Assembly (NCBI GenBank): GCA_036396535.1
Contig: DASWKR010000054.1
Span: 1 to 38,773, forward strand
Reading direction: 5' to 3'
Length of the DNA: 38,773 nt
DNA from: Acidimicrobiia bacterium
GTDB lineage: Bacteria; Actinomycetota; Acidimicrobiia; Spongiisociales; UBA5794
This document shows positions 17,778 through 25,987 of this stretch, one piece after another. Position numbers and translations under genes: made by a program. The stretch's first letter is position 1; every line of letters begins with the position of its first letter. Below the pieces are notes generated by a model. That model did no database searches. It was given only the letters and a program-made list of their open reading frames with translations, and had not been told where the DNA came from.

Positions 17778-19979
17778 ATGCGTACCGAGAGTCAGTCAGT
17801 GCTGCGCGAGGTGCTCCCTCCCGAGGAGCGGGTCATCGAGGCCGTCGTCGCCCGCTACCAGCGTGTCGCCCCGGCGGTGACGCGCTTCGCGCGGTCGCTG
17901 GCGGGCAACCCGGACCTCAACGTGCGCCTCGGCTCGCAGGCTTCTGCGACGGGCGACGACATCGTGATCGACCCGGGCGTCTTCCAGGCGGCCTATGCCA
18001 GGTCGGCACCGGTGACGCCGACGGAGGTGGCGCTGACGTCCGCCCTCCACGAGGTCGTGCACCTCATGGCGACCGACTTCGACGAGAAGCGGCCGATACC
18101 GAAGAGCTGGCTCCCGGAAGACAGGCCGCGCCTCGACGCAGAGGTCCGTCCCATCGAGGCTCCCCATCTCCTGTTCGCGGACGACGACGAATCCGACATC
18201 GAGCCTCCCGACGAAATCGCGGATGACGTCGACCACGACCAGCCGGTCAGCCTGCTGGCGGCGCTCGATGAGGCCGGGGGGCCTCCCGCCATCGCCGTGT
18301 TCCTCGGCCTGGAGGATGCCCGCCAGGAGTTGAAGTTCTTCTCGCTGTACCCGGGAGCCCGGTCCGTGCTCTCCGACCTCTACCGGGCCGCCGTCCCAGA
18401 TGCGATGCGCCAGGCGAGGCCGCTCGGCCAGTTCGCCCTGGGAGCGTTCCTGCTCGTCGGCGGTTACTTCGAACGCGGCGAGCTCGAACGCCGGCTGGCC
18501 CCGCACGTGACCGCAGCCATCGGTGAGGCGGCCGACCTCTTCGACGACGTCGCCGAGGCGGAGGACCCCTGGGAGGTCGGCACCCTGAGCCTCGACCTCC
18601 TGGCGATCGCCAAACGGCACGGGCTCGTGACCGAGGTCGGCGCCTCGGACAACAGGACGACGCAGCGCGCCAAGCTCGAGTCGGACGAAGCGGCGATCTC
18701 GGAGAGCATGGACGCCGTGCGGATCGTCACCCCTCCCCTGCGCGACATGGACTCGTACGACCAGACGAGGCAGGCGGCGATGGCGGTCTCCGCCGAGCAC
18801 GGCCACAAGGGCGAGGTCGACCAGGCGGGCGACCCCGCAACCGACCAGCTGGTGCGGGTGTCGCAGGCTCCCACCGTGTACCTCCCGACGGGTCAGCGCG
18901 GCAAGCTCGTCGTCTCCGGCTTCCCCGACCGGTTCCGCACGTTCGGGACCGATGGGAGGGCGCTGCTCATCGACGCCGCTCGGCAATGGGAGGTCGCCCA
19001 GCGGAGGGTCTCGGGCCAGTTGTACCCGCTGTTCCTCGCCAACCAGCGCCGCGGCCTCCGGTCGGGCTTCGACGCCGGCGACCTGTCGCCTCACGCCGCA
19101 CTGCTGCTCGGTGCCGGGCTCTACGAGCGCATGTTCGAGCGGCGTGACCTGCCGACGAGGCGGAGTTATGGCGTGAGCCTCCTCGTCGATGGTTCGGCGA
19201 GCATGCTGCAGCCTCGGGCGATCGGCGGCGGCCGGCGGACGCCGTGGGCTCTGGCGGCCGCCACGCTCGGGGCGTGGACGCTGGCGCAGCTGTGCAGCGA
19301 GCTGCAGATCGACTTCGAGGTAGCCCTCTTCAACCGCTCGTTCCCGGCGACGGGAGACGACACGGAGACCTCGTTCGTCGAGCGACGCGCCAAGGCGACC
19401 GGAGGCCTGAGGCGCACCCAGGGCGGGGCCGCCGAGCGGCTCACGAGGACCGTCAACCACTACCTCGTCAAGCCGTTCGACATGAGGTGGCGGTCGGCGG
19501 AGGACGTGATGGCCGGCCTGTTCTGGACGGCCGCCAAGCCGCAGGAGGCATCGAGGCAGGTGCGCGTCTCCCCGATCGACGCCCCTCCCATCTCCATGTT
19601 CGACAAGGCGGCCAACGTCGACGAGTTCAACGTGGCGTACGCCGGCAAACGGCTGGCCGCCCGCCAGGCGGCCACCAGGATCCTCGTCGTGCTGGCAGAC
19701 GGGATGACCCGCGGCTCCGTCCAGGCACTCGCCGCCTCCGTCGAAGCGGTCGAGGCCGGCGGTGCGGTGGTGCTCGGCATCGGGATCGGCGACGAGACCG
19801 TGCAGGCCGCCTACGCCAGGAACCAGGTCGTCGAGCGGCCGGACGAGCTGGCCCGGGCCATGGTCGACGGCGTTCGCTCGACCCTCTACAAGACGATCGC
19901 GGTGATGGGAGGGAACACCTGGTGGGCCCACTCCTCCGAGCGAGTCCTCAACGACCAACCAAGGAGTATGCATGCCTGA
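17778..19979 (+). CDS. Zincin-VWA protein (CobT/DUF2201-like architecture)
   Basis: A 733-residue cytoplasmic protein of uncertain function. Near the N-terminus is an HExxH zinc-protease motif (ALHEVVHLM, H91-H95), with a possible third ligand in GLEDARQELKFF at about 177-188. The C-terminal third is a von Willebrand factor A domain: MIDAS DGSAS (471-475) after VSLLV, and VVLADGMTRG supplying the later MIDAS aspartate. The middle is helical with an acidic segment (FADDDESDIEPPDEIADD). The pairing with an AAA+ gene resembles CobT-CobS and other MoxR-VWA chaperone or chelatase systems; DUF2201 proteins also combine a metallopeptidase-like region with VWA but are much shorter. GACAAT 9 nt before the ATG is a weak -10. 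Its stop overlaps the AAA+ start by 8 nt. Confidence 0.8.
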   Translation: MRTESQSVLREVLPPEERVIEAVVARYQRVAPAVTRFARSLAGNPDLNVRLGSQASATGDDIVIDPGVFQAAYARSAPVTPTEVALTSALHEVVHLMATDFDEKRPIPKSWLPEDRPRLDAEVRPIEAPHLLFADDDESDIEPPDEIADDVDHDQPVSLLAALDEAGGPPAIAVFLGLEDARQELKFFSLYPGARSVLSDLYRAAVPDAMRQARPLGQFALGAFLLVGGYFERGELERRLAPHVTAAIGEAADLFDDVAEAEDPWEVGTLSLDLLAIAKRHGLVTEVGASDNRTTQRAKLESDEAAISESMDAVRIVTPPLRDMDSYDQTRQAAMAVSAEHGHKGEVDQAGDPATDQLVRVSQAPTVYLPTGQRGKLVVSGFPDRFRTFGTDGRALLIDAARQWEVAQRRVSGQLYPLFLANQRRGLRSGFDAGDLSPHAALLLGAGLYERMFERRDLPTRRSYGVSLLVDGSASMLQPRAIGGGRRTPWALAAATLGAWTLAQLCSELQIDFEVALFNRSFPATGDDTETSFVERRAKATGGLRRTQGGAAERLTRTVNHYLVKPFDMRWRSAEDVMAGLFWTAAKPQEASRQVRVSPIDAPPISMFDKAANVDEFNVAYAGKRLAARQAATRILVVLADGMTRGSVQALAASVEAVEAGGAVVLGIGIGDETVQAAYARNQVVERPDELARAMVDGVRSTLYKTIAVMGGNTWWAHSSERVLNDQPRSMHA

Positions 19980-20961
19980 GACGGTGAAGTTCGAAGATCC
20001 GACCGGGGAAGGCAGGACGATCGAGCTCGAGGCCACCGAGCTGGCGGACGCCCTTCCCGATCGCGCCCTCCGGATCGAGCACATCCCGGAGCCCGATCCG
20101 TACTACGTCGACCTCGGCATGCTGTATCGACTGGCCCAGCTCGAGGAGGTTCGGCGGAGCCATTTCGACGATACGCCGCTCCACCTGGCGCTGCGCGGCC
20201 ACATGGGAACCGGCAAGGACCACGACCTCGAGCAGTTCGCCGCCCTGCTGAAGATGCCCCACTACCGCATACCGTTGACCGGCGAGGTCCGGGACATCAC
20301 GCTCATCGGCTCGGTGAAGCTCTACGGAGACGGCAAGGGTGGCACCGAGTCGCGCTGGGAGGACGGAGACATCACCAGGGCGTTGCGCGGCCCCGCCCTC
20401 ATCAACCTCTCCGAGCTCAACGCGGCTGGGGCGGAGACCCTCTTCGCGCTCCACGGCCTCCTCGACCGCCACCAGGCACTCGAGCTGCCGACGGGCGAGA
20501 TGATCAAGCTGCGGCCGGAGGTCCGGATCTTCGGGACGCTCAACCCGACCGACTTGCGCGACTACGCCGGCACCCAGACGCTCAACAAGGCCTTCGCCGA
20601 CCGGTGGGTCATCTGGGAGAAGGGCTTCCCGACGGAGGAGCAACTGCTGGTCATGCTCCAGCGGCGTCACCCGGAGCTGTTGAACCAGTACGCCGAGCTG
20701 ATCTCCCGGCTGGCCGGCGAGGTGAACGCCTCGTTCACCTCGGCGGACGCCAGGACCAGAGTCGAGACACCGATGAGCCTGCGAACGGTATTGGACCGGG
20801 TACCGGCGGGCTTACGCATGTTCGGGGAGGCAGGGGACCCGCTGCGACGTGCCTGGGAGGAGTTCGTTCTCCCCCACGTCGACGCCTTCGACCGCGACCA
20901 CTACGAGACCGTATGGGCGGCAGTCGTCAGGACCGGGCCCAAAGCGAAACCGTTCGGGTGA
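19972..20961 (+). CDS. MoxR/CobS-like AAA+ ATPase with altered Walker motifs
   Basis: A 329-residue AAA+ protein, the partner of the upstream VWA gene. The P-loop reads GHMGTGKD (76-83), with Asp where Thr/Ser normally binds Mg. The Walker B strand reads ALINLSELN (142-150): the first acidic residue is replaced by Ser while the Glu remains. Sensor-1 Asn (FGTLNPTD) and an arginine-finger region (NKAFADRW) are present, so the fold is intact although Mg-ATP chemistry may be weak or different. AAGGAG 5 nt before the ATG gives a clear start inside the VWA gene's last codons. Translationally coupled at both ends (8-nt overlap upstream, GTGA with the acetyltransferase downstream). Confidence 0.85.
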   Translation: MPETVKFEDPTGEGRTIELEATELADALPDRALRIEHIPEPDPYYVDLGMLYRLAQLEEVRRSHFDDTPLHLALRGHMGTGKDHDLEQFAALLKMPHYRIPLTGEVRDITLIGSVKLYGDGKGGTESRWEDGDITRALRGPALINLSELNAAGAETLFALHGLLDRHQALELPTGEMIKLRPEVRIFGTLNPTDLRDYAGTQTLNKAFADRWVIWEKGFPTEEQLLVMLQRRHPELLNQYAELISRLAGEVNASFTSADARTRVETPMSLRTVLDRVPAGLRMFGEAGDPLRRAWEEFVLPHVDAFDRDHYETVWAAVVRTGPKAKPFG

Positions 20962-21479
20962 CGGTCACGATCCGCCCCGAGCGGCAGGGCGATGAGCCGG
21001 CGATCCGGCACGTCCACGCCGAGGCCTTCCGCAGTCGGGAAGCGCCTGCGGATGAACCCCCCGAGGTCGGTCTCGTCGACGGGTTGCGCCGCTCGGCTGC
21101 CTGGATCCCGGAGCTCTCCATGGTCGCCGTCGTCGATGACGCCGTCGTCGGACACGTGGTGACGACCCGCGCCCACGTCGAGGGCGATCCGGCCCTGGTG
21201 CTCGGGCCGATCGGCGTGCTCCCGAGCCATCAAGGCGCCGGTGTCGGGTCGGCCCTCATGGAAGCGACGATCGAAGTGGCCGACCACATCGGCGAGCCGC
21301 TCATCGTGCTGCTCGGATCGACGGACTACTACCCCCGGTTCGGTTTCGTACCGGCAGCGGCCATCGGCATCATCGCCCCGCACCCCGAGTGGGGCGACAA
21401 CCTCCAGGCGCTCCCGCTGCACGCCTACCACCCGTTCGCCGGCCCGGTGCGCTTCCCGCCGCCATTCGACGAGCTGTGA
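20958..21479 (+). CDS. GNAT acetyltransferase, YhbS-like
   Basis: A 173-residue N-acetyltransferase. The acetyl-CoA motif A is LGPIGVLPSHQGAGVGSALM, followed by LIVLLGSTDYYPRFGFVPA, the hallmark of the YhbS-type (COG3153) branch. Start GTG overlaps the AAA+ stop as GTGA, making it the third gene of the VWA/AAA+ operon; the longer upstream reading frame is antiframe of the AAA+ gene. Target molecule unknown; its position suggests modification of a component or client of the VWA/AAA+ pair, but this could be simple cotranscription. Confidence 0.85.
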   Translation: MTVTIRPERQGDEPAIRHVHAEAFRSREAPADEPPEVGLVDGLRRSAAWIPELSMVAVVDDAVVGHVVTTRAHVEGDPALVLGPIGVLPSHQGAGVGSALMEATIEVADHIGEPLIVLLGSTDYYPRFGFVPAAAIGIIAPHPEWGDNLQALPLHAYHPFAGPVRFPPPFDEL

Positions 21480-24131: not shown

Positions 24132-24137
24132 TACCGT
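24132..24137 (+). promoter_or_regulatory. -10 element of the LOG-family gene (leaderless)
   Basis: TACCGT, 8 nt before the ATG at 24146, no Shine-Dalgarno sequence. Confidence 0.5.
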
Positions 24138-24145
24138 TGGAAGCC

Positions 24146-25195
24146 ATGCGCGAGTATCGAACCGGTGACGAGGTGATCGACAAACAGATCGCAGACCTGG
24201 TCGCCGCCGCGGGTGACTCTGTCGATCCCAGGGACCGCGATATCACCGTCGAGATGATCGTGAGCGCCATCCGGCTGCTGCGCGACGGAACGGATCGGGG
24301 CGACCTCAAGCTGGTGAACAGCGCCCTCAAGGAGCTCCGTTACTCGTTCCTCGTGTTCTCGCGCTACAAGGACGTCCCCAAGGTGACGATGTACGGATCG
24401 GCGCGCACCAGGCCCGACAGCCCGAACTACGAGCTCGCATCCGAGTTCGCCAACCGGATGGCAGACGTCCACCAGTGGATGGTGATCACCGGGGCCGGCC
24501 CGGGCATCATGGAGGCGGGCAACCTCGGGGCAGGGAGGGACTACGGCTTCGGCGTGAACATCCGCCTGCCGTTCGAGGCCGATCCCAACCCGTACGTCCA
24601 CGAGAGCAGGCTCATCAACTTCAAGTACTTCTTCACCCGCAAGCTGATGTTCGTCAAGGAGTCGGACGCCTTCGTGCTCTTCCCCGGCGGCTTCGGCACG
24701 CAGGACGAGGCGTTCGAGTTGCTCACCCTGATCCAAACCGGGAAGTCGGACATGCACCCGATCGTGCTGCTCGAGGCCGACGGCACGGCGTATTGGGAGA
24801 AGTGGCTCGACTTCATCGCCGCCTTGGAGGGCCAGGGGATGATCTCGCCCCATGACAGGCACTTGTTCACGTTCACCACGAGCGTCGACGAGGCATGCTC
24901 CGAGATCCTGCGCTTCTACGGGAACTACCACTCGCAGCGTTTCGTGAATGGCAAGCTGATACTCAGGCTCAAGCACGAGCCGAGCGACGAGCTCGTGGCC
25001 CAGGTCAACGCCGAATTCGCCGACATCCTGGCATCTGGGACGATCGAGAAGTCGGGACCGACGGACCGCGAGATCGAAGACGACGACCACGTCGAGCTGC
25101 CACGCCTGCGGCTCCACTTCGACCGCAGGAACCTCGGCAGGCTCCGTCTGCTGGTCGATAGGCTGAACCAGGCCGCCGCCGCCCATCAACCCTGA
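24146..25195 (+). CDS. LOG-family Rossmann-fold nucleotide-binding protein
   Basis: A 349-residue protein. After a helical N-terminal extension of about 80 residues comes the LOG core: VTMYGSARTRPDSPNYELA, the nucleotide loop GAGPGIMEAGNLGA and the signature FPGGFGTQDEAFE at about 178-190. LOG proteins hydrolyse nucleotide 5'-monophosphates to base and ribose 5-phosphate, including cytokinin activation in some. The N- and C-terminal extensions separate it from the short LOG enzymes and recall PpnN-like nucleosidases, which respond to alarmone; this is inference. TACCGT 8 nt upstream fixes the start. Confidence 0.85.
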   Translation: MREYRTGDEVIDKQIADLVAAAGDSVDPRDRDITVEMIVSAIRLLRDGTDRGDLKLVNSALKELRYSFLVFSRYKDVPKVTMYGSARTRPDSPNYELASEFANRMADVHQWMVITGAGPGIMEAGNLGAGRDYGFGVNIRLPFEADPNPYVHESRLINFKYFFTRKLMFVKESDAFVLFPGGFGTQDEAFELLTLIQTGKSDMHPIVLLEADGTAYWEKWLDFIAALEGQGMISPHDRHLFTFTTSVDEACSEILRFYGNYHSQRFVNGKLILRLKHEPSDELVAQVNAEFADILASGTIEKSGPTDREIEDDDHVELPRLRLHFDRRNLGRLRLLVDRLNQAAAAHQP

Positions 25196-25204
25196 TCAGG
25201 CCGG

Positions 25205-25210
25205 TAAAAT
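25205..25210 (+). promoter_or_regulatory. -10 element of the DinB/MDMPI-like gene
   Basis: TAAAAT, 9 nt before the ATG at 25220; the best match to a canonical -10 in the window. Confidence 0.5.
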
Positions 25211-25219
25211 GATGCGCCT

Positions 25220-25987
25220 ATGCGTGAGATCCTCTCAGATCTGGTGGCAGAGCAGCAGTCGCTCGACCAGTTCCTCCAGCAGATACACGAGCGCGACTGG
25301 AAGCTGCGGACCCCGGCACCGGGGTGGACCATCCAGGACACCGTGAGCCATCTGGCGTACACCGAGACATTCGCGGCCCGAGCCATCGAGGAGGGCGAGG
25401 CTGCGATCAAGGACGCCGACATCACCGATATCGACGAGTGGACGGCACGGGGCGTGCAGCAGGGCCGAGGCAAGCGCTACCAGGAGACGATCGAGTGGTG
25501 GCGCAACGGCCGGGCCGCCGTCGTCGACCTCCTCTCGCGCATGGAGAAGTCCGAGCGCGTCCCGTGGATCCTGGCGCCGGTGAGTGCCAAGGCCTTCGCG
25601 ACGTTGCGGCTGACGGAGACCTGGGCACATGGGCTCGACATCAAGGCGGCGATGAACGGCCGGCTCCCCGAGCCGGAAGAGGGCGAGGACGACCCGAACG
25701 CCGACACGCCCCGTCTCAGGCACGTCGCCTGGCTCGCTCACCGGATGCTCCCCTACTCGTTCGAGAGGACCGGCGTGGAGTTCCCGGACGCCGGCATCAG
25801 GGTGGAGCTCATGGGCCCCAAGTACTCGCGGTGGGTCTACGGGCCTGAGGATGCCGAGAACGTCATCAAGGGGATCGCCGGCGACTGGTGTCGCGTGGCG
25901 GTCCGGCGACTCGACGCTTCGAAGACAGGGCTCAAGGCCATCGGCGACGCAGCCGAGGTGGCGCTGCGGGTCGTCCAGACCTACTGA
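25220..25987 (+). CDS. DinB-fold, maleylpyruvate isomerase-like protein (TIGR03084 type)
   Basis: A 255-residue protein of the mycothiol-dependent maleylpyruvate isomerase N-domain (MDMPI_N)/DinB superfamily. The four-helix DinB domain shows APGWTIQDTVSHLAYTETFA and TLRLTETWAHGLDIKAAM, with histidines H44 and about H137 as expected metal ligands. The C-terminal part carries the small domain ending in DAAEVALRVVQTY. Such proteins are common in mycothiol-producing actinobacteria, but the reaction of this branch is not established. It is a single gene that converges on the nuclease-like gene at 26080. Confidence 0.82.
   Translation: MREILSDLVAEQQSLDQFLQQIHERDWKLRTPAPGWTIQDTVSHLAYTETFAARAIEEGEAAIKDADITDIDEWTARGVQQGRGKRYQETIEWWRNGRAAVVDLLSRMEKSERVPWILAPVSAKAFATLRLTETWAHGLDIKAAMNGRLPEPEEGEDDPNADTPRLRHVAWLAHRMLPYSFERTGVEFPDAGIRVELMGPKYSRWVYGPEDAENVIKGIAGDWCRVAVRRLDASKTGLKAIGDAAEVALRVVQTY

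Follow-up and report, generated by a model that had tools for sequence, protein, structure and literature searches.

A zincin-VWA protein paired with a MoxR protein is an architecture already described in phages, which a survey of jumbo phages suggested to function in the assembly of virions (PMC7824862). For NorQD, two reports describe a mechanism in which the VWA protein NorD docks on the NorQ ring (PMC13036017, PMC9976466), and the latter indicates that the MIDAS Thr of NorD is both present and needed (PMC9976466). Here we compare these systems with a gene pair from an Acidimicrobiia bacterium, encoded on a contig of 38,773 nucleotides that is referred to as the window (DASWKR010000054.1, assembly GCA_036396535.1). 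Sequence comparison indicates that the pair is homologous to CobS/CobT, with phage CobS/CobT-like pairs as its closest resemblance; it is a conserved variant of a known machine, neither an artefact nor a new kind. An earlier note on this DNA had set the pair apart from ordinary MoxR-VWA pairs. That contrast was too strong, as phage CobS/CobT-like pairs already join an HExxH-VWA protein to a MoxR/CobS-type ring; the coupling of a protease-like part to a MoxR-type ring was borne out.

The locus consists of three open reading frames on the plus strand, and an ORF check returned the same coordinates as before. The first encodes a CobT/NorD-like zincin-VWA protein of 733 amino acids (17778–19979), assigned by profile, structure, and orthologue comparison, the second a CobS/MoxR-type AAA+ protein of 329 amino acids (19972–20961), and the third a GNAT acetyltransferase of 173 amino acids (20958–21479; Acetyltransf_1, 1.4e-9). 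The AAA gene, which is present in one copy in the source genome, shares its first 8 bases with the end of the VWA gene, and its likely ribosome-binding site, AAGGAG, lies inside the VWA gene (19961–19966, plus strand). The acetyltransferase had been proposed to belong to the same operon and its GTG start at 20958 does overlap the AAA gene stop, but it adjoins the pair in only 1/121 loci. It was therefore rejected as a conserved partner or operon member and is regarded as lineage-specific and incidental. A 762-amino acid open frame antisense to the VWA gene (17796–20084, minus strand) looks like an artefact of high G+C content.

Distribution of the pair

Each of the two proteins was found in 132/149 genomes of relatives, with five of the AAA hits, from other families of the class, being weak or distant. 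The pair is single-copy and adjacent in approximately 93% of the genomes of the order (127–130/138), and the genomes of the family or order that lack it are mostly incomplete assemblies. Two genomes of about 1.1 Mb that belong to a different family of the class carry the pair as well; in these, the AAA protein is 60–61% identical and the partner about 30% identical. A search of 296 genomes of the phylum resulted in no further close relative, the next being two genomes at about 40% identity, with GKT in the P-loop. Among the best 80 of 153 relatives, all of them close, those with names are mostly labelled Acidimicrobiia and nearly all are metagenome-assembled. The pair is a fixed bacterial core locus. 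No match to a defence system was obtained with PADLOC, and this identity was rejected.

Of the actinobacterial relatives with GKT, the one nearest to the AAA protein is encoded next to a VWA protein without HExxH (L243:1590–9573, genome G188; also L244). By eye, this cluster reads as a methanol or corrinoid methyltransferase operon, with RamA-like, corrinoid, and MtaB-like proteins.

The ATP site of the AAA+ protein

The AAA+ protein matches AAA_5 (PF07728) above the curated cut-off (46.7 bits versus 22; 4e-12) and the CobS structure at 6e-17, and it scores 48.5 bits against the cobaltochelatase CobS model TIGR01650, below the equivalog cut-off of 558.55. Its Walker A motif is altered to GHMGTGKDHD (20197–20226, plus strand), in which the P-loop GHMGTGKD spans residues 76–83 and ends in Asp83 (20218–20220). 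The Walker B motif (20398–20421, plus strand) includes NLSELN, whose NLSE is at residues 145–148, with Ser147 (20410–20412) in the place of Asp and the catalytic Glu148 kept. A joint alignment was made of 83 GKD proteins, 48 viral CobS-like proteins, and 23 other actinobacterial AAA proteins. Every one of the 83 GKD proteins has Asp at position 83, where the 71 homologues have Thr or Ser, while position 147 is Ser in 83/83 and, among the homologues, Asp in 67, Glu in three, and Asn in one. Lys82, Glu148, sensor 1 Asn191 (20542–20544), and the arginine finger Arg211 (20602–20604) are invariant across all three groups, and sensor 2 Arg271 (20782–20784; these three also on the plus strand) is found in 83/83 GKD proteins and 67/71 homologues. 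Judged by these residues, the protein is a variant rather than a canonical member of the MoxR/CobS-type AAA+ family (PF07728), having the sensor 1 Asn, arginine finger, and sensor 2 Arg of that family and, in 83/83 cases, GKD and SE instead of GK[T/S] and DE.

The altered P-loop and Walker B Ser read from the single sequence were thus confirmed in every aligned orthologue, and the conserved GKD and LSE subfamily that profile and orthologue comparison was meant to reveal exists. It forms one group on the tree (support 96/93) and reaches down to the 1.1-Mb genomes of the class; among the best 80 of 153 relatives, which are named loci and all close, both GKD and SELNA occur in 80/80. In 98 distinct sequences Asp83 is encoded by GAC (74) or GAT (24) and Ser147 by TCN (96) or AGC (2), and therefore the residues, not the codons, are held. 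The earlier note had considered that homologues with GKT and DE would point to a decayed copy or a sequencing artefact; these motifs were seen only in the wider family, not in orthologues. Although two catalytic positions do differ from that family, both changes are invariant across the order and beyond in independently sequenced genomes. Decay or sequencing error, refuted by orthologues that share GKD and the Walker B Ser, is thus extremely improbable.

Few residues of P-loop ATPases are as conserved as the Thr/Ser of Walker A and the Asp of Walker B, which sit side by side at the Mg2+ ion. Because these two residues adjoin at the metal, the changes look like a reciprocal exchange that moved a carboxylate to Walker A and a hydroxyl to Walker B. 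Such an exchange would keep Mg2+ binding and suggests a motor that has been rebuilt, not one that is dead. That the protein is an active AAA+ ATPase whose Mg2+-binding residues are swapped order-wide (Walker A Thr to Asp, Walker B Asp to Ser) and that it forms part of a VWA-linked metalloprotease is a possibility that we put somewhat below an even chance. Alternatively, the ring might bind nucleotide without useful hydrolysis, with Asp83 repelling or replacing the metal, and switch the zincin-VWA partner in the role of a scaffold or ligand sensor. This would fit the change of both standard Mg2+ ligands in every orthologue and the unusual placement of a carboxylate beside the P-loop Lys and the phosphates, but it would leave little reason for the invariance of Glu148, sensor 1, sensor 2, and the arginine finger, and the exchange retains one hydroxyl and one carboxylate. 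We consider this alternative rather unlikely. A ring that simply senses a ligand and has no ATPase activity is not favoured either, because the other catalytic residues are kept and the changes look like exchange instead of loss. The predicted model of the AAA protein has a pLDDT of about 30 in its core and is unusable there; a PDB search with it gave no match at E 0.001 and the result was discarded. A literature search for a GKD Walker A motif in an AAA+ protein returned nothing relevant, its only hit, on LonP1, being judged irrelevant from the title.

The zincin and VWA domains of the partner

The partner carries the zinc motif HEVVH at residues 91–95 (18048–18062, plus strand). His91, Glu92, and His95 are invariant in 50/50 aligned relatives, some of them only about 30% identical, and HExxH is present in 73/73 named loci from the best 80 of 153 relatives. 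A candidate third zinc ligand, Glu184 (18327–18329, plus strand), lies in LEDARQE, is conserved in 50/50, and is aligned by hhalign to the LEDIWxE motif of phage homologues. HExxH followed by a Glu ligand in a later helix is the gluzincin arrangement, and the two motifs here coincide with predicted helices 81–98 and 169–188. HExxH by itself is no proof of a peptidase; the N-terminal domain is probably an active gluzincin-type domain, and the partner would be expected to bind zinc and to have peptidase activity.

A scan of viral sequences with a phage CobT-like profile resulted in 42 loci, in which HExxH is present in the CobT-like proteins, with ED...E after it in most cases, and the AAA neighbours have GKT/S, with DE wherever the pattern located Walker B. 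A tblastn search of phage records with the VWA protein gave no match, and the link to phages needed profiles. The N-terminal domain scored 50.8 with hhalign against the phage HExxH domain and 34.1 against true CobT, compared to at most 16.0 for 20 column shuffles and 16.8 for a reversal; as single-pair hhalign E-values are uncalibrated, the argument for homology rests on these shuffled and reversed controls. By this comparison, the domain is homologous to the HExxH domain of phage CobT-like proteins.

True CobT (PF06213) has an N-terminal domain that also aligns with the phage CobT-like zincin domain, and HExxH is absent from it in three true CobT sequences (L245:4398–6221, L246:5087–6946, L250:4432–6327). 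CobT may derive from a zincin.

The predicted model of the partner has a mean pLDDT of 78.6 and resembles models of phage CobT-like proteins along almost its full length (Foldseek, 1e-13). Among the solved structures listed for the full model, its VWA domain matches NorD best (Z 19.4, rmsd 5.0 over 237 residues; Z 18.8, 2.6 over 214), followed by Rea1-MIDAS (Z 17.6). This list contained no zincin structure, which is uninformative because a single domain filled it. The C-terminal half matches phage CobT in hhalign at 9e-13, an uncalibrated single-pair E-value. Against the CobT VWA domain PF11775 the partner scores 14.2 bits, below the curated cut-off of 21, and an orthologue (L061) 26.6 bits, above it; this model was matched by 25/41 at E up to 1. 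The first MIDAS motif, DGSAS (residues 471–475; 19188–19202), has its D, S, and S invariant in 50/50, as is the last MIDAS Asp, Asp641 (19698–19700). The MIDAS Thr is replaced by Val614 in NVDE (residues 613–616; 19614–19625, all three features on the plus strand), which is aligned to phage NSDY. Thus, of the HExxH and MIDAS-bearing VWA domain initially read from the 733-residue protein, HExxH and the VWA domain stand and the MIDAS is incomplete, with DxSxS and Asp kept.

The replacement, Val in 48 and Ile in two of the 50 orthologues, means that the alterations of the pair extend to a second metal site. Without the MIDAS Thr, clients may be bound less strongly.

Proposed mechanism and comparison with known machines

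We give about an even chance to the reading that the pair is a chromosomal CobS/CobT-like remodelling machine, built from a MoxR AAA+ protein and a VWA protein, with a gluzincin partner moved by the ring and an ATP site working with exchanged Mg2+ ligands. The AAA+ protein would form a hexameric ring, and the partner would bind this ring through its C-terminal VWA domain in the way that NorD docks on NorQ. As the hydroxyl of Walker A and the carboxylate of Walker B are exchanged (Thr to Asp, Asp to Ser), not lost, the ATP site would still work with Mg2+, and nucleotide-driven motion of the ring would move the partner together with its N-terminal domain. This metal-binding gluzincin-type (HExxH...E) domain would then act on a putative client protein, with cleavage as the simplest possibility.

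The pair might instead be a metal-insertion chaperone like NorQD or CobST, with the HExxH domain holding or delivering metal without cutting. The nearest solved single-module AAA proteins are CobS and NorQ, the nearest VWA protein is NorD, and true CobT shares the N-terminal domain without HExxH. A possible client is a TIGR03084 metal-binding protein, encoded with a LOG-family protein downstream of the pair (24134–25987). Both genes lie within 6 kb downstream and on the same strand in 66/74 loci, and TIGR03084 is present with the pair in both 1.1-Mb genomes. However, since general gene order is conserved around the pair, including dapB, M16, and LOG, this linkage is weak evidence and a lead only, and the partner keeps the full HExxH...Glu set expected of an enzyme. 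Overall, a chaperone of this kind seems unlikely. CobN (PF02514) is absent from 31 genomes, including that of the window, with control genomes positive, and PF06213 CobT is absent from 60 genomes; a cobaltochelatase was therefore rejected.

If the remodelling machine with an exchanged ATP site is correct, an order-wide exchange of ligands in an otherwise unchanged site would mean that the metal site of a P-loop motor can be rebuilt, and the exchanged pair would be an experiment of nature on the importance of each ligand position.

Compared to known systems, the phage pair (phrog_249, phrog_5298, phrog_1576) shares adjacent genes, a CobS-like AAA protein, HExxH fused to a CobT-type VWA domain, and ED...E; it differs in having GKT/S and mostly DE where GKD and SE are found here, and in gene order, with the AAA gene mostly first. 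Midasin (Rea1/Mdn1) is matched in both its AAA modules and its MIDAS domain, but is a single eukaryotic giant protein that is not known to have a zincin domain. NorQ-NorD shares a MoxR-type ring and the VWA fold with the highest Z score, whereas NorQ has normal ATPase motifs and NorD is described, in the sections consulted, with no mention of a zincin domain. CobS-CobT shares the CobS-type AAA protein, the CobT-type VWA domain, and the N-terminal domain, which CobT appears to carry without HExxH; CobS has canonical GKS and DE. The pair ties together phage CobS/CobT-like proteins, CobT, and NorD.
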